Of a stretch of DNA of 64,000 nucleotides, positions 5,812 through 40,434 are shown piece after piece. This DNA is from Candidatus Gastranaerophilales bacterium (lineage in GTDB: Bacteria; Cyanobacteriota; Vampirovibrionia; Gastranaerophilales; Gastranaerophilaceae). Made by a program: the position numbers and the translations under genes. Below the pieces are notes generated by a model. The model did no database searches, was not told where the DNA came from, and worked only from the letters and a program-made list of their open reading frames with translations. The stretch's first letter is position 1. Each line of letters opens with the position of its first letter. The stretch lies in contig CALUQX010000008.1 in NCBI GenBank assembly GCA_944323045.1, forward strand, positions 1 through 64,000, read 5' to 3'.

Positions 5812-6252
5812 TTAATTCATCCTTAAATCTTCTGCCAGCTCGTCGAATTTTGCAGTTACATGTTCTGCAAAGTTTTCTTCATTAAGTGTTTTTAAAATAT
5901 CATTTTTGGTGCCGCAAGCCAACACACAGCGATTTGGCTGCTCCAGCGGACTTTTTACGACAGCTTGAAGATATCTTAGTTGGTTATAATTTGGTTCATT
6001 TTTTAATGATTGCGGCAATGGTACTATTTGTAATCTCATTTCGTTTGCATAGACATCCGGATTATGATTAACATAGCGTTCTATAACAGGTGCAAAATCA
6101 CCATCCTGCGGAACTTCGCGTTCTGCACGGTTTGAGAGATTTTTTACGGCACTTTTGGCAAAATCTTCTATTGTTTCAGGTTGAGTATCCATTTTTTGGG
6201 TTCCTTTGAAATTGATTGTATTGTATTGATTCACAGGATTAATTTCAGTCAT
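5812..6252 (-). CDS. Hypothetical protein, 146 residues
   Basis: Not recognised. It is a soluble-looking protein with a short N-terminal segment NPVNQYNTINFKGTQ followed by an acidic, helix-rich body with Cys at about 109 and 112. There is no signal peptide or membrane helix. AGAGG stands 5 nt before the ATG. It lies between the giant 12923-6279 gene (26 nt upstream) and the AsmA-like gene (60 nt downstream), so it may be read with the giant gene. The INFKG motif near the N-terminus may be a targeting or docking tag; that is only a guess. Confidence 0.7.
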   Translation of the reverse strand: MTEINPVNQYNTINFKGTQKMDTQPETIEDFAKSAVKNLSNRAEREVPQDGDFAPVIERYVNHNPDVYANEMRLQIVPLPQSLKNEPNYNQLRYLQAVVKSPLEQPNRCVLACGTKNDILKTLNEENFAEHVTAKFDELAEDLRMN

Positions 6253-6278
6253 ATTTACCTCTCATTTATTATAACATA

Positions 6279-9200
6279 CTATTGTGGATTTTTAAAGCCT
6301 ATAAGAACAATCGGGAGATTTTTCTTCCGTGCAAACTCTAAAAACTCAGACGGCACATCATTTATATCTGACACTCGTGCAATAAGTCCTTTGATACGCG
6401 GATTGATAGATACAATTTCACTGTGTTCATAACCTTGAAACAGGGCATCGCGTGATTTTTCAAAAGCGTAGACTAAATCATCTGCCTTGAATGTTCTATC
6501 ACCTATTTTTATATCTTTAATCTGAGTTGTATACTTTTTAGAGAAAATGTATTTTGAAATTTGGGCATAATCTTGTAATGATATGTCAAGACCGCGTTCT
6601 TTCATAGCTTCAATAAATCCGTCACGAACAAATGTTCTTGTTTCTCCACTCTGATCAAACAGTATGCTGGCAAAATCGCTTATATCTTTCTGCATGCCAG
6701 AGGCTAAGTTTCCATAATAAGCCTGCGCAACATTAGGTTTGTCCACATCAAGAATAAACCCGTATTTTCTGTTTGTGTAAGTTCTGTTATTATCAAGACT
6801 AATCAAAGATGTTGACCATGTGCTTTTATTTGAAGTATTGGCAAGCAATGCCTCAACTGTCGGGAATTCATCCGGTCTTGTCATGTGTACGGTAAATCTT
6901 GCATTGTCCTTAGTTGTTCCCGGAGCAAAGCCATATTGTTCAAGGTCATTTATAGTTTCATCAGTGAGATTAAGGACTTTTAAATCAACTTCTTCACCGT
7001 TAATATTGACTTTTTGAGTCGGGAATTTTTCCATTGCACGGGTAAATTGTGTATCAAAAACTATATTTGCTTTTTCACGCATTTCTTCTAATTTCTCTTC
7101 TATCGGACGCGCTTTGTCACGCATGTATGCGTCAAATTCAGCCTGATTAGCAGTACCTGTTTTTTCAAAGTGGAATGTAGGATTGACGTTTGAAAGATCA
7201 GATTTAGCCAGAATCATAGAGATTTTGAAATCTTCCGGACGTCTGCAATTTGCAGCCATTGTTTCTGCTGAAATCTGTCTTGTGTTATATTTTTCAAACC
7301 AGTGGTGGTTGTCGACAATATCAATAATTCTTGTTTTAACCGCATCATTAAGCTGGAATTTGTTTAACACAGCGCGTGCGTAATCAGAACTCAATGAGGC
7401 ATGACCTCTGTCAACAACTCCGCCTTTTTTACCGGTATCGTGAAGAATGGCTGCTATTTTAAGAATAGTCTTGTCTTGCTCAGAAAGCTCTTTGTACATA
7501 GGATCATTCATTGCACTTTGCAAAACTTTAAGAGTATGAATATCTACTGTGTATGCGTGGGTTCCATGCTGTTTTTTGCCGACAATTGTGGTAAATTCCG
7601 GCAAGCCCTGTATAAGTGCATCAAAAACCTCTTTAGTCTGTTTATCATTAATTAAAACTTCATTGTTAAGCGTGAATTCTTTTATTCTGTCTGCAATTTT
7701 ATCAGCAATATATAAAGTTCGTTCTGATAATTCGGCTTTTTCAAAGTCTTTAAATTCTGTTACAACCGGCAGACCTTCAAAACCTGCTTCTCCCTGTTCC
7801 AGTCTAAAGTGATTACGGATTTTATACTGATCTTCATCAGAAAGCTGTGATAGCAGAATCTCAATATCATCATTGAATTTATTCCGCGGATATTTGAGCG
7901 GTATACCATCATTATATTGCGTGAAATCAAATGTTTTTAAGACATTTTCAGCCTGCGGATTGTTATTTGCAACAATTTCATGCAAAAAGTCTTTTTGCTT
8001 ATGAATCTCCGTTTTTATAACCGGACGATTTATACCTAAACTTTCAGCCAATCTTGTTTTATACATATTTATATCAATACCTTGTTTAGCAATATTCTGA
8101 ACAGCATCATCCGATAAATTGTTTAATTTTTCAAGTAAGCTAGCCCGAACATTCAACTTTGAATTAACTAAATTACCGGAAATCAATGTTTCAAATTCCT
8201 CAAAATTAAGTCCTGCATTGTTAACACCATTACCCAGCAAAGTTTTATAAATTTTAAACGAATTATCATCAATATCCGCGAGTTTACGTAATTCATACGA
8301 ATCCGTTGTTATCGTTAATAAGTCTCGTTCTAATATTTTTTGAAATACAGCAGTGGGATAATCTTTTTTTACTTGTGTCAGAGTACTAAGAGCATTATAT
8401 AATTTATTTACGTCAAGATAATTTTTATCATATATTCCGGATTTTTTAATATATTCATATAATTCAGGATTATTCTCTATCATATTATATAATTTCAAGA
8501 AATCATATAAATTTCCATCAACCTGCCCATATGTTTTTCCGTCTATGACCAAATTCTCATTAGTAATTTTTTTGTTAATAGTCGCGAATTTTGCAATATT
8601 AAAAGGAGTCATTTTCCCTTTCAAAAATTCTATATTATGTTTAATAATATTACTATCAACATTATTTATTAAAAATTTATAGTAATCATTTTGTTTGTAG
8701 CCGGAATAAACATCTGTTATATCGTCCATCTCACTGGAATTAAACAGAGCTTCTATAATTTCAGAATTTTCTTTAATTTTTTCCATGGAAGGCATGTTTT
8801 TAGTCAATTCGATGAAATCCTCAATGTGACCATCAAACGGATCAAGGCTTGGATGTTTATCTAATATAAAATTAATAAGCTCTGTAATTTTAGTAATATC
8901 TAATTCCTTATTGTAGTATATTACATCAAGGTGACCATCAAAATTTTCTAACAAACCATTTTTGATTAGAGTTTTGTTAATATCTGCGGCATAATTAAAA
9001 TCAAATGCTTTGTTAGATGCTTTTCTTGAAAATCTTTCTATATTTGTGCTGGTGAATTTTCCCTGATCTTTAAGGGAGCGGATGTATTTTGCTGCCCCGT
9101 CATAATCACCGTTTGCAACTATAAAATTAGAGGCCATATTGGAACCATTTACATATGGTGAAGGGAGTTTTCCGACATCTGCAAATGCATCAAGCAGTTT

Positions 9201-12200
9201 GGCAGGTCCGCTGAAATCCTGCACTCCTAATTTACTCAGGTCTTCAACAAATCCGTTGGATATATAATAATCGTCCTTGAATTTTGCCATTGCATTATAA
9301 AGTTCGGCAAGCGAAGCATCAGGTTCAAGTTTTACTGCACCATTTTCTTTTGCTAAAATATGATAGAAAGGATTTATTTTACTTGCTTTTGCCTCGGGTG
9401 AAAGTTTTTTGATAAATTCCGCTACTTTATCAAAGTTTTCAAGGTTTACAAGTTCTTCAATCTGTGAATAATATGTTGATTCTATATCATTAAAGGAAAT
9501 TTCATACTTTTCACAAGCTTCATTGATTTTTTTCATGACCTCATAATCAGTAGTAAAATTTCTTTCGCCTAATTCAATACGCACGCCGTTTTGTTGGGCT
9601 TTTTCATATTCAATCTTTAAATTTTGTACAAATTCAGGAGTGATTTTTTCAACATCATCAATTTTATAAAACATTCGCGGATCCAGTTTTACATCCAGTC
9701 CATTTGCAACATAAGCAATTTTTTCAAGTCTTTCTGGCGAAAGCCCTTTCAGAGCAGGTTTATTATAGAATATAAGATTTGTTATATCCTCTGTGCTTAA
9801 CTTTTGATCAATTAACTTGTTATAATATATTAGATTACTTATATATTTACTATTCTCCGGTTTGCTTGCAAGTTCTAGCAGCATATAACCAGCATCTTCT
9901 GCATCCATATTGAAATCAGTCATTAATTTTTCAATATTTTCATATCTTAATATTGATGTATCTTTTATTTTACCGATGTCTCCTGACTGTAAATTTGCAA
10001 TAAGTTCATCTTTAGGTATAGCTTTAACATCTTCTACAGAATCAGGGAGGATTTTTGATGCCAGATCAAAATATGCAATAATTGCGTCTGGATTAGTGAT
10101 ATTATCCATATCTTTTTCTGTCAAATTTAATTTACTTAAAATCTCTGCTTTTTCAGTTTCAGTATATGGCGGTGCCTCTATAAAATATGGTTCTTTATCA
10201 AGTTCATAATTATATAGTTTAAGTGCGGTTTCTTCTGAAATTTTACCGTCTTTGAGTTTGGCGGCATTATCATGAAGGGCTTCAAGATTTTCAGCACTCA
10301 AGCGTTTGTCCAGTGCACCAAAATCCCCGTAAGCTTCCAGTTTCGGAGCTGTGCTGTCAAATCCCAGTTCAATTTTACGCAGATGTTTGTAGTGGTCTGT
10401 CAAATACTGGTTATATCTATTAAACTGATCATCGGAAAGATTATGTATAATATCTTCAATCGGCTGGTAAAGTGCTTTAAGTTCTTTTCTGCCGCCGGTT
10501 ACATCTTTTCCCTGACGGATGTCGTATGGCACGTGTTCGCATTCTGCAAAATCATTAACCTGTGAGCCGCGTAACTGCCATTCAAAAGTAAATCCGTCTT
10601 TTGTTTTGAAATTCATCTGGTAAGCGGTATAACCGGACGGACGAATTTTTGGCGAAGGGTCTTTTATGTTCAATTCAACCCCGTGTTGTGCAGCGACAAA
10701 GTTTATGTGTTCTATCTGTTCTTTGGATAGATACGGAATTCCGTCTTTGCCCATATAATTACTGATTTTTGCAGCTGAGATATTGGATTTGCCTTGAGAT
10801 TGCTGTATTATCAAGTTTTCCAGCTTTTTGGCAAACTGTTGGGATTGACGTTCTGCAGCCATAATATATGCCTTTTCCGGATCAGTTTTATATACTTCTA
10901 CAATATCCGGATAATCCTTGTAATCAAAATCATCTAATCTGGTACGTGTGCCAACCGCATCATAAACACCTTTAACCGCCTTTTCAAAAGTAGCCGGATA
11001 TTTTTTATCTGTCATTGAAGAGGATACTTTATCATAAATACTTTGTTCGGATTTAGGGCGATGCGTCATTGTTTCTTTATCAATGCCAAATCCAGCCTCC
11101 TGCATTGCTGTCACTATTTCAGCTTCTTTGTCAACTGCTGCGTTATGAAGTTCTGTAGCCTTTGCACGAACAATTTTTTCGCCTTCGGGTGTCAAAATTT
11201 TTGTTCCGTCCGGCTGTTCAATGATGTGTTGCGGTAACGGCATAGCCGGCTTGGTTTCCTGAACTTTAGGCGCCGGAATGCCCTCATCCGGTTTATTTAT
11301 GTGGTTTATCTGCTCATTTGGATCTATATATTTTGCTGTAGAAATATCTGCCTCCGGCGCCTGATTATGCAACTTACTTCCTAATTCATGACCGACTTTT
11401 CCGGCAGCTTTCATGCCTCCGCCTATAAGTGGTGACATTATCGCGCCGCCGACAAAACCTTCGACTGCGGAATTAGCAACTTCTTCCAATGTTCCGCCAT
11501 CATAAGCTGTTCTAAACGCATTATCCACAGCACCGCCTACAGCACCGTCTGTTGCCATTTCTGCACTCATTGCAGTGCCGCGTTTTAACACATTTCCGCC
11601 TATATACTGATATCCTGTCGGATTCTGCATCATTGTAGTAAAGCTTTCTTTACCTAATTGTTTTGCGGTTTCCGCTGCTGCCTCTTTAGCTGTCTGTTGT
11701 GTTGTTTCTGCCGCTATTTCTTTACCGGTTTGTTTAGCAAGCTGTTTTGCGGTATCCAAGGCTAATTCTTTTCCTGCCTCTTTGGCGGTCTGAACTGCTG
11801 CTTCTTCTGCTACTTCTTTACCCACTTGTTTTACCGCCTGTATTCCAAGTTTTGTAGCAACTGTTTTCCCTACAGCGCCGCCCATACCTCCGGTAACAGG
11901 AGCTAAAGCGCCTGAAAATGCTCCGGTTACGGCATCATGACCTGCGTCTTTTAAACTATATTCTCTACCGGCACTTGCTGCATCAGCACCTTTTAAACCC
12001 GCTTTTATAGCCGCACCGCTTGCGGTTGCTGCACCTATACCCACGGCTATTGATGCTCCGCCGGTGAATGGAGTTGCTGCGACTGCGGCTGCATATATTC
12101 CCACTGAGGCTATACCGGAAACTATATCAGCACCCACATCTACTGCCATTTCTTGACCTTCATTATAGCCTTGCAGGGCGGTTTCTGATTTTAGTTTTAT

Positions 12201-12923
12201 TTCGCCTTTAATGAATTTTTCTATATTTTCTTGAGTATAATCGACTCCGGTCAAATCTTTAAAAGTTTTTGCGCGGGTTTGTTCGTTATTATTGAATTGA
12301 GTCAATAATTTTTGTTCTAATTCTTGTTGTTCACGGACTTTGTCTGAGCTATCACCTATTCCTGTCAAATTTTTAAACCCACTCCATGTTTTACCGATGA
12401 AACCGTTTGAGTCTTCAGCTTTAGATAAGTCTTTTGTTACATTATTTATGCGGGATTCTAATGTTTCGTTCAGATTGTATGTTTTGCCGTCTGAGAGTTT
12501 GATTTGAACATCGTTGCTTTCTACCTGTTTGAAGTAATTTTCTTTAAGTTCAGTGCCGTCTGCAGCGTAGTATTTTATCTGCCCGTTGAGATTTATACTG
12601 TAGCGACCTGATTTTTTTATATCTATTTGACCTTCTTTGGATGTAAAGTATTTTTCGTTTAATTCAGTGCCATCGGCGGCATAGTATTTTGTGATGCCGT
12701 TTTGAAGTTCTATACGGCGACCGGATTTGAGGGTAATTATCTTCTTCTCATTGGTGGAGGTATTTTCAAGTGTTGTGCCTTTGGAAGATGATGCGGTTGT
12801 GCCGGACAGCAGCGCTGTTAATTCGGAATTGGATAATTTTTCCAATTCTGCGCGTTTGGCGTCGGCTGAAGCGCCGCTTAAGCCTAGGCTCTGAATATAT
12901 TTTGTTATTTGTACTTCAGACAT
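6279..12923 (-). CDS. Giant multidomain protein: RelA/SpoT-type synthetase plus HD phosphohydrolase
   Basis: About 2214 residues; GGAGG 5 nt before the ATG at 12923 decides the start. Residues about 60-120 hold two YYAADGTEL repeats. About 240-350 is a Gly/Ala-rich hydrophobic region, then an Ala/Lys/Glu-rich helical repeat (about 358-428, TAKQLAKQTGKE type). About 618-815 matches the (p)ppGpp synthetase fold: RPKSEQSIYDK (canonical RPKxxxSIxxK), YDAVGTRTRL (catalytic Asp), SGYTAYQ (canonical GYxSxH, with the His replaced by Gln), FEWQLRG (catalytic Glu, canonical ExQxR) and EHVPYDIRQGK. About 850-1650 is unrecognised and helical. About 1785-1875 is an HD domain (HAYTVDIHT, AAILHDTGK, H, NHH). 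The last 200 residues carry STWSTS and EHSE motifs that may mark a third domain. The order differs from RelA/SpoT (HD first), and the HD is the HDxGK type, not the HDxxED type of RSH hydrolases. The substrate is not known. Confidence 0.85.
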   Translation of the reverse strand: MSEVQITKYIQSLGLSGASADAKRAELEKLSNSELTALLSGTTASSSKGTTLENTSTNEKKIITLKSGRRIELQNGITKYYAADGTELNEKYFTSKEGQIDIKKSGRYSINLNGQIKYYAADGTELKENYFKQVESNDVQIKLSDGKTYNLNETLESRINNVTKDLSKAEDSNGFIGKTWSGFKNLTGIGDSSDKVREQQELEQKLLTQFNNNEQTRAKTFKDLTGVDYTQENIEKFIKGEIKLKSETALQGYNEGQEMAVDVGADIVSGIASVGIYAAAVAATPFTGGASIAVGIGAATASGAAIKAGLKGADAASAGREYSLKDAGHDAVTGAFSGALAPVTGGMGGAVGKTVATKLGIQAVKQVGKEVAEEAAVQTAKEAGKELALDTAKQLAKQTGKEIAAETTQQTAKEAAAETAKQLGKESFTTMMQNPTGYQYIGGNVLKRGTAMSAEMATDGAVGGAVDNAFRTAYDGGTLEEVANSAVEGFVGGAIMSPLIGGGMKAAGKVGHELGSKLHNQAPEADISTAKYIDPNEQINHINKPDEGIPAPKVQETKPAMPLPQHIIEQPDGTKILTPEGEKIVRAKATELHNAAVDKEAEIVTAMQEAGFGIDKETMTHRPKSEQSIYDKVSSSMTDKKYPATFEKAVKGVYDAVGTRTRLDDFDYKDYPDIVEVYKTDPEKAYIMAAERQSQQFAKKLENLIIQQSQGKSNISAAKISNYMGKDGIPYLSKEQIEHINFVAAQHGVELNIKDPSPKIRPSGYTAYQMNFKTKDGFTFEWQLRGSQVNDFAECEHVPYDIRQGKDVTGGRKELKALYQPIEDIIHNLSDDQFNRYNQYLTDHYKHLRKIELGFDSTAPKLEAYGDFGALDKRLSAENLEALHDNAAKLKDGKISEETALKLYNYELDKEPYFIEAPPYTETEKAEILSKLNLTEKDMDNITNPDAIIAYFDLASKILPDSVEDVKAIPKDELIANLQSGDIGKIKDTSILRYENIEKLMTDFNMDAEDAGYMLLELASKPENSKYISNLIYYNKLIDQKLSTEDITNLIFYNKPALKGLSPERLEKIAYVANGLDVKLDPRMFYKIDDVEKITPEFVQNLKIEYEKAQQNGVRIELGERNFTTDYEVMKKINEACEKYEISFNDIESTYYSQIEELVNLENFDKVAEFIKKLSPEAKASKINPFYHILAKENGAVKLEPDASLAELYNAMAKFKDDYYISNGFVEDLSKLGVQDFSGPAKLLDAFADVGKLPSPYVNGSNMASNFIVANGDYDGAAKYIRSLKDQGKFTSTNIERFSRKASNKAFDFNYAADINKTLIKNGLLENFDGHLDVIYYNKELDITKITELINFILDKHPSLDPFDGHIEDFIELTKNMPSMEKIKENSEIIEALFNSSEMDDITDVYSGYKQNDYYKFLINNVDSNIIKHNIEFLKGKMTPFNIAKFATINKKITNENLVIDGKTYGQVDGNLYDFLKLYNMIENNPELYEYIKKSGIYDKNYLDVNKLYNALSTLTQVKKDYPTAVFQKILERDLLTITTDSYELRKLADIDDNSFKIYKTLLGNGVNNAGLNFEEFETLISGNLVNSKLNVRASLLEKLNNLSDDAVQNIAKQGIDINMYKTRLAESLGINRPVIKTEIHKQKDFLHEIVANNNPQAENVLKTFDFTQYNDGIPLKYPRNKFNDDIEILLSQLSDEDQYKIRNHFRLEQGEAGFEGLPVVTEFKDFEKAELSERTLYIADKIADRIKEFTLNNEVLINDKQTKEVFDALIQGLPEFTTIVGKKQHGTHAYTVDIHTLKVLQSAMNDPMYKELSEQDKTILKIAAILHDTGKKGGVVDRGHASLSSDYARAVLNKFQLNDAVKTRIIDIVDNHHWFEKYNTRQISAETMAANCRRPEDFKISMILAKSDLSNVNPTFHFEKTGTANQAEFDAYMRDKARPIEEKLEEMREKANIVFDTQFTRAMEKFPTQKVNINGEEVDLKVLNLTDETINDLEQYGFAPGTTKDNARFTVHMTRPDEFPTVEALLANTSNKSTWSTSLISLDNNRTYTNRKYGFILDVDKPNVAQAYYGNLASGMQKDISDFASILFDQSGETRTFVRDGFIEAMKERGLDISLQDYAQISKYIFSKKYTTQIKDIKIGDRTFKADDLVYAFEKSRDALFQGYEHSEIVSINPRIKGLIARVSDINDVPSEFLEFARKKNLPIVLIGFKNPQ

Positions 12924-13024
12924 TAAGCCTCCACACACCGTGATTACTCTATCTTTATCGGCACGGTTGTGCAACGACTTTAATATTTGAACGGTTTTAT
13001 TACTTTTTGTTAATAATTAAAAAA

Positions 13025-19750: not shown

Positions 19751-20890
19751 TTACTGGTCAAGACAAACCGCGAGTAAGTTGCGTTCGTTGCGGGTGTTTC
19801 CGTTGCCGCCGTACCAGTACGTATAGGTGGAGACGTAGTTGCGTTCATGTGCACTGAGAGCGCCGCACTCCTGTCCACTCCAAACATTGAAGTAATTAGA
19901 ACCTGGTGAGGCTGAAAGGAATTGGGAGGCTTTCTCTGGGTCCATTGCTAAGCTGCTGGTTCTTCCGCTTGAACTTACGCTATCCGTGTTGTAGATATAA
20001 TTCGCTAGTTTGGTTAGCTGGTCTTGGCTTGGCATTTTACTAACGCCACCACATTTTGCTACTGCTCCTGCCCAGTAGTCATCTTCATAGTAACATGCAC
20101 TTATTTCTAAGTCACCCTTTTGTTCTTCACATTGTGCTTTGGTTAATGGTCCATAGCCGCCATTCTGTGGTCCTAGTATCTGGCTTATGCAAAATCCTAA
20201 TTCGTCTTCTGGCAACAAACATCCTGATACGCCGGCTAGTTGGGTTACATTTGCGTTATGGGCGATGTCTTTGCCATTCATATTCGGGTTCTTATTGCCT
20301 GACACATCGTACAGAATCGCCATGCTTGCTGCTGTCGCCGCAAATGTATTATTAAATGGTTCCTGTGTTGTATTCGGGTTATATGCAATAATTGCGTTGA
20401 CTCCGTTTGCAAATTGCACTGCTACTGTGTCTGTATCCCAGTCATCCTGACCTAAGCTTGCGGCGTTCTTGATTGTGGACATATCTATCGGGTCTTCGCC
20501 TTCGTTCCAAATTACTTCTTTGTTAAAACATTTGGTAATGTTTTTGTTATCACATACGCGGGTGATTTTTATGTACTTCTTTAATTCGTTCACAAAGTCC
20601 ATGGTGTTTGAGTAGCCTGCAAGTTTTTCTTCTGTGTTCATTTGGCGAGTTGCGACTTCTAATCGTTTTGTGAACACGTCCTGTGCGGTGCTCCATGCCT
20701 TCTCGTTGTAGTTCTTGACTAATGACGGTATTGTTATCGCCGCTACCACGCCGATGATTGCCAGCGTGATGAGGGTCTCGGCGAGCGTGAAAGCGTTGGC
20801 GCGAGTGAGGAAGTGAGTGCTGTGAGTAAAGTGAGTAGCGTGGTTTCTTTGATTAGGCTTTACACTTGCTTCTTTTGTGTTGTTTTTCAT
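19751..20890 (-). CDS. Prepilin-type protein with long leader (copy 2)
   Basis: A 379-residue paralogue of the genes at 298 and 32862. The leader is 33 residues, then A|FTLAETLITLAIIGVVAAITIPSLV with Glu5. Residues 19-27 of the leader (THFTHSTHF) again read the ACTCAC repeat in frame. The body (CVATRQ-like region onward) is almost the same as copy 3 up to about residue 270: VCDNKNITKCFNKEVIWNEG and GPQNGGYGPLTKAQCEEQKG. The last 50 residues are different, rich in Tyr, Asn and Gly, and end AVCLDQ. A GGAGAATAAACA-ATG site sets the start. It is probably an exposed pilin-like subunit with a diversified tip. Confidence 0.85.
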   Translation of the reverse strand: MKNNTKEASVKPNQRNHATHFTHSTHFLTRANAFTLAETLITLAIIGVVAAITIPSLVKNYNEKAWSTAQDVFTKRLEVATRQMNTEEKLAGYSNTMDFVNELKKYIKITRVCDNKNITKCFNKEVIWNEGEDPIDMSTIKNAASLGQDDWDTDTVAVQFANGVNAIIAYNPNTTQEPFNNTFAATAASMAILYDVSGNKNPNMNGKDIAHNANVTQLAGVSGCLLPEDELGFCISQILGPQNGGYGPLTKAQCEEQKGDLEISACYYEDDYWAGAVAKCGGVSKMPSQDQLTKLANYIYNTDSVSSSGRTSSLAMDPEKASQFLSASPGSNYFNVWSGQECGALSAHERNYVSTYTYWYGGNGNTRNERNLLAVCLDQ

Positions 20891-29715: not shown

Positions 29716-30390
29716 TTATAACTTATATGGGTAATCTTTCTTAAACTCCCAGTTGTCGTATTGTAGCAGTACAGAACAATATGCCCCAATTTCTTTACAT
29801 TTTTGTAATGCTTCACCTCTATTTTTTATTGCTCCTGCATTATATGGTCTAAATCCGGAAGATACCGCTGATCCTCCGCTATTCGGATAACATATAGTAT
29901 ATCTGTAGCGGTCAATTCCACCTTTATCAGCTCCTTTTAAGCCATCTGTATCATAAACCATATCCATACAACCGCCTAAATGAAAAAGTATTCTTGATCC
30001 GTCAGCCATGTACACTGTGACCAACTCCTTTTGTTCAGGTTCGGTATCTGTTGCCGGGATATAAGATCCTTCAACTATACGGGTGTAATTCATATACGGT
30101 AACAGATATTTTTTTATCCAGTTTTCTGTATATCTAAAATTAGTTGGATAATCATAATTATTATTTTCATCATTAACACTAGGAGCAAAATCCCAGCTTA
30201 ATAATTCTCCGTTATCAATTTCTGACAATTTTATTGCCTGCGTCATTACGCTATAGAATTTTTTTAATTTTGTGGAAGTAACTTTTTTCTTATATTCTTG
30301 AACAACAGCGGGAATAGTAATTGCCGCCACAATTCCGATTATTGCAAGTGTAATCAGGACTTCTGCCAGTGTGAACGCTTTATGCTTCAT
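29716..30390 (-). CDS. Prepilin-type protein with short leader (pair 1)
   Basis: 224 residues. The canonical short leader MKHKA is cut before FTLAEVLITLAIIGIVAAITIPAVV, with Glu5. The body has a GGCMDMVYDTDG segment with Cys, an NxxG-rich middle and a Cys pair near the C-terminus (QKCKEIGAYCSVLLQYDNWEF). It differs clearly from the three long-leader paralogues. GGAGGAGAATT before the ATG fixes the start. It is divergent from an XRE regulator 69 bp away, the same arrangement as at 39760/40501. Confidence 0.85.
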   Translation of the reverse strand: MKHKAFTLAEVLITLAIIGIVAAITIPAVVQEYKKKVTSTKLKKFYSVMTQAIKLSEIDNGELLSWDFAPSVNDENNNYDYPTNFRYTENWIKKYLLPYMNYTRIVEGSYIPATDTEPEQKELVTVYMADGSRILFHLGGCMDMVYDTDGLKGADKGGIDRYRYTICYPNSGGSAVSSGFRPYNAGAIKNRGEALQKCKEIGAYCSVLLQYDNWEFKKDYPYKL

Positions 30391-32861: not shown

Positions 32862-34022
32862 TTACGATTTAATACATATCGCAATCGCGTCTCTACTGGA
32901 GCGATAGTAGCTACATGGAAGGTACACAGCGAAAGAGTAGAAGTAACGAGCTGACACGTATCTGCTGTCCTGTTCATCACTTGACCACACATTAAACTGG
33001 AACGAATATGGTGAGTTTGATAAAAATAGGCTTGCCTTTGCTGTGTCTATTTCTGCTTCTAACATGTCTTCCGCACCTAATGCGCCATCGTGATTATATA
33101 GGTAGGTAGCTAATTGAGATATCTGTGCTTGTGTTGGTATGTTTTTTGTACCACTGCATGCTTTCACTGCGCCTGCCCAGTAGTCATCGTCATAGTCGCA
33201 TGCACTTATGCCTAAGTCTCCTTTTTGTGCCTCGCATTCAGCTCTTGTTAATGGTCCATAACCGCCATTCTGTGGTCCTAGTATCTGGGTTATGCAAAAT
33301 CCTACTTCGTCTTCTGGCAACAAGCAGCCTGTAACTCCTGCAAGTTGTTTTATATTTGTATTATGTGCGATATCTTTTCCATTGGTGTTTGGATTCTTAT
33401 AACCTGAAACATCAAATAATATCGCCATGCTTGCAGCTGTTGCTGAAAATGTATTATTAAATGGTTCCTGCGTGGTATTTGGATTATAGGCGATTACCGC
33501 ATTCACTCCATTCGCAAACTGTACTGCTACTGTATCTGTATCCCAATCCAAGCCAAATGCTGATGCATCTGTCACCTCTGACATATCTACTGGGTCTTCA
33601 CCCTCGTTCCAGATTACTTCTTTATTAAAACATTTTGTAATATTGCTGTTGTCACATACTCTTGTTATTTTTATGTACTTTTTAAGTTCATTTACAAAGT
33701 CCATGGTATTAGAATAGCCTGCAAGTTTTTCTTCGGTATTCATCTGGCGGGTTGCTACTTCAAGGCGGTTGGTGAATACCTTCTGTGCGGTTTCCCATGC
33801 CTTTGCATTGTAATTCTGGATTAATGCAGGTAATGTCAGCACTGCCACTACGCCAATAATCGCGAGGGTGATGAGGACCTCTGCGAGAGTAAAGGCGGGT
33901 TTGTGTTTAAAGACGTTAAGACGATAAGACGTTAGGACGTTAAGTCCTTTACATCTTTTAGGCTTTGTTTCTACGTGATTAATTACGTTCTGATTAACAA
34001 TACTTTTTAAATCTTTTCCCAT
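32862..34022 (-). CDS. Prepilin-type protein with long leader (copy 3)
   Basis: A 386-residue paralogue of the genes at 298 and 19751. The leader is 43 residues, then A|FTLAEVLITLAIIGVVAVLTLPALI with Glu5. Residues 26-38 of the leader (GLNVLTSYRLNVF) are the in-frame reading of the GACGTTAAGACGATAAGACG repeat that is intergenic elsewhere; the ACTCAC repeat of the other two leaders is absent. Up to about residue 270 it is very close to copy 2; the last 60 residues diverge (YVSARYFYSFAVY and so on, ending AICIKS). AAAGGAGGTAAAAAATAA-ATG fixes the start. Confidence 0.85.
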   Translation of the reverse strand: MGKDLKSIVNQNVINHVETKPKRCKGLNVLTSYRLNVFKHKPAFTLAEVLITLAIIGVVAVLTLPALIQNYNAKAWETAQKVFTNRLEVATRQMNTEEKLAGYSNTMDFVNELKKYIKITRVCDNSNITKCFNKEVIWNEGEDPVDMSEVTDASAFGLDWDTDTVAVQFANGVNAVIAYNPNTTQEPFNNTFSATAASMAILFDVSGYKNPNTNGKDIAHNTNIKQLAGVTGCLLPEDEVGFCITQILGPQNGGYGPLTRAECEAQKGDLGISACDYDDDYWAGAVKACSGTKNIPTQAQISQLATYLYNHDGALGAEDMLEAEIDTAKASLFLSNSPYSFQFNVWSSDEQDSRYVSARYFYSFAVYLPCSYYRSSRDAIAICIKS

Positions 34023-39759: not shown

Positions 39760-40434
39760 TTATATGTCTTTCCAGAAATTTTTATCATAAAGCGCCTTAA
39801 AAGTACAACCAGCCCCATTCATACCATCCGCATTTATTGAGGAACACAAACTATTATCTGCTCTGTAAAAAGATGTACCCTTTGCGCCCATAGGTAATAA
39901 GGTTCCTTTAGTATCAATTTGAAACATAAACAAGTCTTTACCAAGTTGATTAGGCTTTTTATTAACGCCATTAACATCTACAGAAATACATAATCCACCG
40001 GCATTTTGATTGGTGTGATTTTCAATCAAAATATACATATTATCATTTAGTAATGCCTGACCATCATCAAACATATTAGAAGCGCCAAGGGGTACACCGA
40101 TGTAATTGTGATATATATTTTTAAGTTCATCGCTTTTTATACAAGCCTCATTCTCATTTTGTCCATATGCGCAATCTTTTGCGACTTTAAGATATTTTAG
40201 CATATGTTTCTTCAGTTCACGATATTCCGTATTTTCAGGAGTTAGCCGGAAACCGTTTTCTGCCTGATACATATTTAATACCTGATTTAAAGTTGAATAT
40301 GCTTTGCGCAGCCCTGTTTCCAGCTCTTTTGCTCTGTAATGCTGTACAAGATTTGGTATTGTCAATGCCGCAACGACTCCTATTATAGCAAGCGTAATTA
40401 ATACTTCTGCCAATGTAAAAGCTATATGTTTCAT
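39760..40434 (-). CDS. Prepilin-type protein with short leader (pair 2)
   Basis: 224 residues. The leader MKHIA is cut before FTLAEVLITLAIIGVVAALTIPNLV, with Glu5. The body has YSTLNQVLNMYQAENG, DCAYGQNENEACIKSDE and a C-terminal half with SVDVNGVNKKPNQLGKDLFMFQID, a phrase common to minor pseudopilins. There are Cys near the end (SLCSS, GAGCTFKALYD). GGAGGTATAA-ATG sets the start. It is divergent from an XRE gene 66 bp away. Confidence 0.85.
   Translation of the reverse strand: MKHIAFTLAEVLITLAIIGVVAALTIPNLVQHYRAKELETGLRKAYSTLNQVLNMYQAENGFRLTPENTEYRELKKHMLKYLKVAKDCAYGQNENEACIKSDELKNIYHNYIGVPLGASNMFDDGQALLNDNMYILIENHTNQNAGGLCISVDVNGVNKKPNQLGKDLFMFQIDTKGTLLPMGAKGTSFYRADNSLCSSINADGMNGAGCTFKALYDKNFWKDI

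Follow-up and report, generated by a model that had tools for sequence, protein, structure and literature searches.

We propose that a giant protein from a member of the Gastranaerophilales is an alarmone-synthetase (toxSAS-like) polymorphic effector, and that it is restrained by a new immunity protein, W146. We consider this explanation fairly probable. The Gastranaerophilales are non-photosynthetic relatives of the Cyanobacteria; they are common gut bacteria and are difficult to culture. The gene for the giant protein lies in the 64,000-nucleotide stretch of DNA that we analyzed (the window), and W146 is encoded 26 bp downstream of it.

The gene and its setting

The open reading frame is on the minus strand (12923..6279). 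As the original prediction had it, the protein is 2,214 amino acids long, starting from the ATG at 12923, which is preceded by a GGAGG Shine-Dalgarno sequence. We number residues from an upstream TTG (12974), which adds 17 to the numbers of the original prediction. All features below are also on the minus strand. The locus lies between miaA and an AsmA-like gene rather than in a toxin island; its context is chromosomal and operon-like.

A comparison of the whole 2,214-residue protein to the PDB with phmmer gave one chance match and nothing else. Relatives of either module were not found in viral contigs, and no relative of the synthetase domain was found in plasmids. With PADLOC and PHROGs, the matches were weak or were at the level of the HD domain only. 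For the organism's own genome, our work consisted of searches and stretches of sequence.

A RelA/SpoT-type synthetase domain below the Pfam cut-off

The protein contains a true RelA/SpoT-type (RSH) synthetase fold at about residues 600-925 (10200..11177), which includes the region (618-815) where this fold was originally predicted. Because PF04607 matches the window protein at just 13.2 bits (E = 0.11; the cut-off is 27), a plain Pfam scan would miss this domain. We consider the fold to be firm because three lines of evidence agree. First, the relatives L052, L054, and L060 pass the PF04607 cut-off (32.7, 30.5, and 29.6 bits), and they match the RSH domain from the window at E = 1e-20 to 1e-28. 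Second, when a profile of 51 family members was compared to the PDB, nothing but RelA/SpoT enzymes scored below E = 0.02 (9s6k at 9e-5, YwaC at 2e-4, 3l9d, 2be3, and 8vx3). Third, the predicted structure of the domain (pLDDT 94.7, pTM 0.90) has top-ranked structural matches that are all RSH/SAS enzymes: RelQ (5ded, Z = 11.4), RelP (11.2), CapRel (11.2), and SaEAS (8vx3, 11.0), with lower scores for Tas1/Apk1 (8.5) and FaRel2 (6.6).

The genome also encodes a separate canonical Rel of 735 amino acids. By profile comparison, the similarity of the RSH domain to this protein is weak and partial (E = 0.006 for all of Rel, or 0.001 for its synthetase part, versus a best value of 0.04 among 30 shuffles). 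Between orthologs from the same genus, the RSH domain has dN of about 0.06 versus dS of 1.3-2.3, so it is under purifying selection.

W146 is linked to the RSH domain

W146 (5812..6252) is a protein of 146 amino acids and is our candidate for the immunity protein of the RSH domain. In 71 of 76 loci, an HMM for W146 placed it directly downstream of the RSH gene and in the same orientation, usually with a gap of 5-100 bp; the fetched loci that lack an RSH domain yielded no copy. In the whole genomes of 59 relatives, there are 21 copies of W146, and 20 of these adjoin an RSH gene. The remaining copy is an orphan; orphan copies are common among immunity genes. In a sample of the phylum, all 23 further genomes with W146 have the RSH domain as well. 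The two genes adjoin on one contig in 22 of these, and in the other genome W146 is on a separate contig, near a contig end. Among the genomes in this sample without W146, 11 of the 16 tested also lack the RSH domain. Two RSH relatives (L125 and L126) have no copy of W146. The linkage tracks the RSH domain across its different protein contexts and not the remainder of the protein. W146 has no relative in Pfam or in the PDB.

W146 may also be expressed from its own promoter. Just upstream of it is a promoter-like site, TATGTTATAAT (6268..6296), which matches the consensus for an extended -10 and is conserved in orthologs from the same genus. More broadly, TATAAT is found upstream of 26 of 49 W146 genes, as compared to 47 of 169 other close co-directional pairs (p = 0.002, ignoring relatedness).

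Judging from this genomic association, W146 is probably the antidote of the RSH domain. Alternatively, W146 could serve the RSH-bearing region as a dedicated chaperone or as an adaptor for export, in which case the effector may be aimed at some other kind of cell. Linkage to a cargo domain would also suit a domain-specific chaperone. We nevertheless think that this is unlikely: W146 follows the RSH domain in any protein context, one copy is an orphan, TATAAT-type sites are over-represented upstream of it, and the partners of toxSAS that are known from this position are inhibitors (PMC12226406).

A modular architecture with interchangeable cargo

The protein begins with an element of about 45 amino acids, MSEVQITKYIQSLGLSGASADAKRAELEKLSNSELTALLSG (12780..12923), that is common to giant proteins that are otherwise unlike each other. 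An HMM for this element matched 20 ORFs at or near the N-terminus, and their middles and ends differ. It is a candidate for a targeting or secretion signal. Next is an N-terminal module (residues 81-545; 11340..12734) that combines hydrophobic Gly/Ala segments with amphipathic repeats rich in Ala and Lys. Hydropathy is highest at residues 280-300 and 307-327, and the hydrophobic and Ala/Lys repeat regions that had been noticed before correspond to residues 280-327 and about 370-450. This module is about 70% identical to the N-terminal part of L035, which ends in an ADP-ribosyltransferase domain (ADPrib_exo_Tox in Pfam). The same N-terminal module is thus joined to ADPrib_exo_Tox in L035 and to the RSH domain, the HD domain, and the C-terminal domain in the window protein, which is a trait of polymorphic toxins.

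The RSH domain itself recurs in about 80 otherwise unlike proteins with varied partners. These reach 4,355 amino acids, and one relative (L040) has the RSH domain only. Among 77 ORFs, the RSH domain is the last domain in 44 and is internal in 33, as it is in the window protein. It is followed by a fast-evolving linker or stalk (residues 930-1600; 8175..10187) that is 52-58% identical between orthologs, as compared to 84-94% for the flanking domains. The swapping of cargo behind the N-terminal module and the varied partners of the RSH domain bear out the suggestion that this is a polymorphic-toxin-like protein.

A Pfam scan of the window protein revealed no trafficking domain, and searches of the genome for a contractile sheath (phage sheath) and for VipB were negative. 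TolC-type proteins are not decisive evidence for a delivery system.

The RSH domain could instead belong to an intracellular toxin-antitoxin or phage-defense switch of the kind seen in CapRel or FaRel2. The giant protein would then sense a signal, the RSH domain would stop growth, and W146 would be the antitoxin. In favor of this, CapRel ranks with the top structural matches, and the gene's context is chromosomal and operon-like. But the shared N-terminal signal and an N-terminal module that is also joined to an ADP-ribosyltransferase resemble an effector chassis, no toxSAS/CapRel model in PADLOC matched the giant protein, and the relatives can be over 4,000 residues long. We consider a switch to be slightly less likely than a chaperone role for W146. 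We also found nothing to support the earlier idea of a sensor-coupled stress switch.

The HD domain and the C-terminal domain

The HD phosphohydrolase domain that was originally predicted is present at residues 1757-1960 (7095..7706; HDTGK is at 7428-7442). PF01966 matches this region above its cut-off (E = 1.4e-5), and a GlnD-type HD matches at 1.6e-11. In a moderate-confidence structural model, the HD domain is most similar to an A-adding tRNA enzyme (Z = 11.8), then Ppx (about 9-10), with the HD domain of Rel at 7.8; the HD protein YpgQ is also among the matches. This HD domain is of the A-adding-enzyme/Ppx/GlnD type and not of the Rel hydrolase type, so the subtype does differ from that of RelA/SpoT, as had been proposed. 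The bifunctional Rel/SpoT enzymes also have an HD domain and a synthetase in one chain, but here the order is reversed, as originally noted, and the HD domain lies about 900 residues after the RSH domain. With this order, a different HD subtype, and no match to TGS or ACT, the window protein does not have the Rel/SpoT architecture, in which a Rel-type HD directly precedes the synthetase and TGS/ACT follow it.

The C-terminal domain (residues 1961-2231; 6282..7094) matches no family in Pfam. It has V-H, S-x-S, and E columns, in that order, that are invariant in 10 relatives. This motif is a lead that suggests that the domain is possibly ADP-ribosyltransferase-like (ART-like). Foldseek/VIA on a moderate-confidence model of the HD and C-terminal domains placed the HD domain alone; no ART was among the matches listed, and the C-terminal part of this model is weak and was barely tested. 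The C-terminal domain is found without the HD domain in L136.

It was originally suggested that the HD domain is a built-in antidote that hydrolyzes the alarmone which the RSH domain of the same chain produces. The metal-binding motif of the HD domain is indeed intact, purifying selection acts on the domain, and its structural neighbors include the HD domains of Rel and of Ppx/GppA. However, we rate this as improbable because the HD and RSH domains seldom co-occur: the HD domain is present in just 9 of 79 RSH-bearing relatives. The HD domain and the C-terminal domain also occur together in proteins without the RSH domain (L032 from the same genome, L039, L041, L044, and L046, although three of these ORFs end at the edge of a contig or locus). 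Furthermore, the A-adding enzymes are closer in structure than Rel is, and there is a separate gene that is linked to the RSH domain. W146, with its tight linkage to the RSH domain, is the better candidate for the antidote.

Active-site motifs and the acceptor

Across an alignment of 80 sequences, with identities down to 27%, the synthetase motifs that were originally noticed are intact. In R639-x-K641...S645...K649 (11028..11060), R and K are conserved in 79 of 80, S in 69, and K649 in 78. In D672-AVGT-R677 (syn2; 10944..10961), the catalytic D and the R are present in 79 sequences and G675 in 72. The S, G, Y, and Q of SGYTAYQ (syn3, residues 780-786; 10617..10637) are invariant, as are the E and Q of E798-WQL-R802 (syn4; 10569..10583), while R802 and E811 are each in 78. 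Past the catalytic Glu, in E813-H814..Y817 (10524..10538), E and H are invariant and Y is in 79. Overall, R639, K641, D672, R677, G781, Y782, Q786, E798, Q800, and H814 are each kept in 79-80 of the 80 sequences, and the catalytic D and E in at least 79. It is very improbable that the RSH domain has lost catalysis and serves as a scaffold or sensor, as the replacement of the canonical SxH of syn3 by [A/T]xQ might suggest, given that metal- and ATP-site residues are present in at least 78 of 80 such divergent sequences and that dN/dS is low.

The syn3 signature is SxH in synthetases that recognize guanosine and GxN in those that recognize adenosine, and the Apk enzymes, which make (p)ppApp, have GxN in syn3 and YH in syn4 (PMC12226406). 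In this family, syn3 is SGYT[A/T]xQ, with Q in 80 of 80 sequences, so the SxH that is specific for (p)ppGpp synthesis is absent. The window protein has AxQ in syn3 and LR in syn4, which is not the Apk signature either. The acceptor-site motif is therefore outside both of the nucleotide classes that have been described so far.

Comparison to known systems

Apk1 (Tas1; Pseudomonas type VI secretion) and Apk2/IapK (MuF prophage toxins) have inhibitory immunity proteins (PMC12691689, PMC12226406). As in the window, an RSH synthetase is the cargo of a larger protein and a small gene lies directly behind, and the window RSH domain matches the fold of Apk1/Tas1. Unlike in these systems, neither a PAAR/Rhs nor a MuF domain turned up in the window protein; W146 has no detectable sequence relation to any PDB chain; syn3 is [A/T]xQ and the RSH domain is internal; and we recognized no Aph1-type hydrolase gene beside the giant gene. 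The exported alarmone synthetases (SaEAS, VpEAS, and AaEAS) also have the synthetase domain in an apparently exported protein, but those that are exported via Sec have no immunity gene (PMC12691689). The window protein does have a linked partner gene, and by eye we saw no obvious Sec signal peptide in it. Modular effectors with an RSH domain and swappable cargo are also known among polymorphic toxins, as the RelA/SpoT-like toxin domain (Zhang et al. 2012), and from the XopAD effectors; in the portion of that source that we draw on, the carriers are T7SS, MuF, and T3SS, and neither the N-terminal module nor this lineage is among them (PMC3482391). The toxSAS tRNA pyrophosphokinases FaRel2 and CapRel share the RSH fold, but here it is within a giant multidomain protein.

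Proposed mechanism and implications

Under the effector explanation, the N-terminal signal and the amphipathic and hydrophobic N-terminal module would carry interchangeable catalytic cargo, which here would be a toxSAS-like RSH 3'-pyrophosphokinase, then an HD phosphohydrolase, and then the third conserved domain. We infer that the protein is exported and toxic. In the target cell, the RSH domain would move pyrophosphate from ATP onto the 3'-OH of an acceptor, for which GDP/GTP, AMP/ADP/ATP, or tRNA are candidates. This would drain ATP or block translation and lead to growth arrest. In the producer, W146 would bind and block the synthetase domain and so shield the cell.

We counted several observations against this model: we identified no delivery system; the RSH domain lies within the chain, whereas classical toxin domains are C-terminal; W146 has no relative in Pfam or the PDB; syn3 is outside SxH and GxN; there is no toxin island; and L125 and L126 lack W146.

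In a literature search, we did not find a description of a weapon system of Gastranaerophilales, or of toxSAS together with Melainabacteria. More tentatively, these proteins could be an undescribed and lineage-restricted class of multi-enzyme effectors, with an atypical-acceptor RSH domain, an HD domain, and an ART-like domain in one exported chain, a new immunity family, and a route outside of the known contractile systems; we lean against this broader claim.

The candidate toxin and immunity protein look like a new family. If so, toxic alarmone synthetases would extend to a new lineage and have a new family of partners. The linkage between the RSH domain and W146 provides a rule by which to annotate about 80 proteins in which the synthetase domain scores near or below the Pfam cut-off, and it gives a concrete candidate pair of toxin and immunity protein that is testable from two short genes.

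Domain layout of the giant protein

The giant ORF (12974..6279, minus strand) is open throughout and likely starts at the ATG at 12923, which has GGAGG ahead of it. From this ATG we obtained the same length, 2214 amino acids, as the original prediction. (We number residues from the TTG, which adds 17 to the numbers in that prediction.) The protein begins with a 45-amino-acid N-terminal element and an N-module that has two hydrophobic segments as well as amphipathic repeats rich in Ala and Lys; these are followed by the RelA/SpoT-type (RSH) alarmone synthetase domain, a linker of about 670 amino acids, an HD phosphohydrolase domain, and a conserved C-terminal domain. The RSH, HD and C-terminal domains share 84-94% identity between orthologues from the same genus (dN 0.04-0.12, dS mostly >1), while the linkers share only 52-64%, so all three modules look to be under purifying selection.

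The synthetase domain

In a plain Pfam scan of the giant protein, HD (PF01966) scored over the cut-off and RelA_SpoT (PF04607) under it, so that only the first of these predicted domains was recovered directly. Homology closes this gap. About 80 other copies of the RSH domain share 27-89% identity with it; those in several short proteins (L052, L054 and L060) pass the PF04607 cut-off, and a profile of the family matches RSH enzymes in PDB. The predicted structure (pLDDT 94.7) resembles RelQ, RelP, CapRel and an exported SAS (Z about 11) as well as Tas1 (Z 8.5). R639, K641, K649, D672, R677, Y782, E798, Q800, R802 and H814 are each kept in 78-80 of 80 sequences. Because these lines of evidence agree, the predicted synthetase fold with its intact D and E, as originally proposed, is not a chance resemblance.

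The active-site motifs syn2 and syn4 are like those of ordinary RSH/SAS enzymes. The syn3 motif is SGYT[A/T]xQ, which is neither the guanosine signature (SxH) nor the adenosine signature (GxN) (PMC12226406). The genome also encodes a separate, canonical Rel.

A candidate immunity gene

The next gene downstream (5812-6252, minus strand) encodes a 146-amino-acid protein, W146, with no credible match in Pfam or PDB. Its homologues lie directly downstream of the RSH gene, on the same strand, at 71 of 76 testable loci, irrespective of which other domains the RSH gene contains, and they are absent from every fetched locus that lacks an RSH domain. (L128 and L149 also have a small ORF downstream of the RSH gene, one that gave no match to the W146 HMM.) By coordinate comparison across 59 whole genomes, 20 of 21 W146 copies are beside an RSH match and one is alone. 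In 23 further genomes from the phylum that contain W146, an RSH domain accompanies all copies; the two are adjacent in 22, and in the other W146 is on a different contig, by the contig end. All matches in the phylum sample are within the window's own family, with one copy per genome save in one genome; two relatives from another family of the same order also have a copy.

An extended -10 box just ahead of the W146 gene is conserved. TATAAT is found upstream of W146 in 26/49 cases versus 47/169 for other close gene pairs (p = 0.002, uncorrected for relatedness).

Other arrangements also occur. An orphan W146-like gene (L151:4655-5047, minus strand; G018:C2:84657-85046) has no RSH neighbour, and its genome carries a paired copy as well; orphan immunity genes are common. 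At L115:9987-10871, two tandem W146-like genes lie about 1.5 kb downstream of the RSH gene, unlike the single, directly following W146 of nearly all other loci.

Module swapping and the HD domain

BLAST and HMM mapping show that the giant-protein family is a mosaic. The N-module is 69% identical to that of a same-genus protein (L035) whose C-terminal end is a Pfam ADP-ribosyltransferase (ART), and the 45-amino-acid element also opens proteins with quite different middles. Of 77 ORFs, 44 have the RSH domain as their last domain and 33 have it internally.

The HD domain had been proposed to be the synthetase's own antidote, yet it is present in just 9 of 79 RSH-bearing proteins, and HD plus C-terminal units without RSH also occur, including one in the window's own genome (L032). 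The HD is thus not tied to the RSH domain and may have an independent activity; judged from a model of moderate quality, its nearest matches are A-adding tRNA enzymes, Ppx and YpgQ. The L032 protein is open at the end of contig C8, and an N-terminal signal lies at the end of contig C17 (61699-61839) of this genome; these are probably halves of a second giant gene of the same type (compare L039).

The residues V-H, S-x-S and E are invariant in the C-terminal domain and follow one another in an ART-like order, with no fold support. This domain is an independent module: it also occurs mid-chain in a 2348-amino-acid protein (L136:3521-10564) that ends with an RSH domain and has no HD.

In Deltaproteobacteria bacterium GWA2_38_16, a 2403-amino-acid protein (L126:3410-10621) combines a Ppx-GppA phosphatase (Pfam 2e-23) with a C-terminal RSH domain of the family described here, and is possibly a synthetase and alarmone phosphatase on a single chain. 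It has no W146 partner.

Other genes in the window

Five scattered genes (298-1419, 19751-20890, 29716-30390, 32862-34022 and 39760-40434), a striking number for 64 kb, have products whose N-terminus resembles that of type IV pilins, e.g. FTLAEVLITLAIIGVVAA.

A putative effector and its immunity protein

The simplest reading, which draws on gene linkage, is that the giant protein is an effector whose RSH domain would make a toxic 3'-pyrophosphorylated product, and that W146 would be the immunity protein against this domain. Delivery is the weakest step of this explanation. We found no contractile sheath or VipB in the window's genome (97% complete), which does encode TolC-type outer-membrane proteins, and no relatives on viral contigs or plasmids.

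The proposed pair resembles two known ones, Apk1 and its immunity protein, and Apk2 and IapK; in the second of these, IapK occludes the acceptor site (PMC12226406, PMC12691689). RelA/SpoT-like domains are already known from polymorphic toxins, according to PMC3482391, and exported alarmone synthetases have been linked to several export systems (PMC12691689). Relative to these, the protein is new in its lineage, its giant chassis, its syn3 variant and its partner family, and in joining RSH both to HD and to a third conserved domain.
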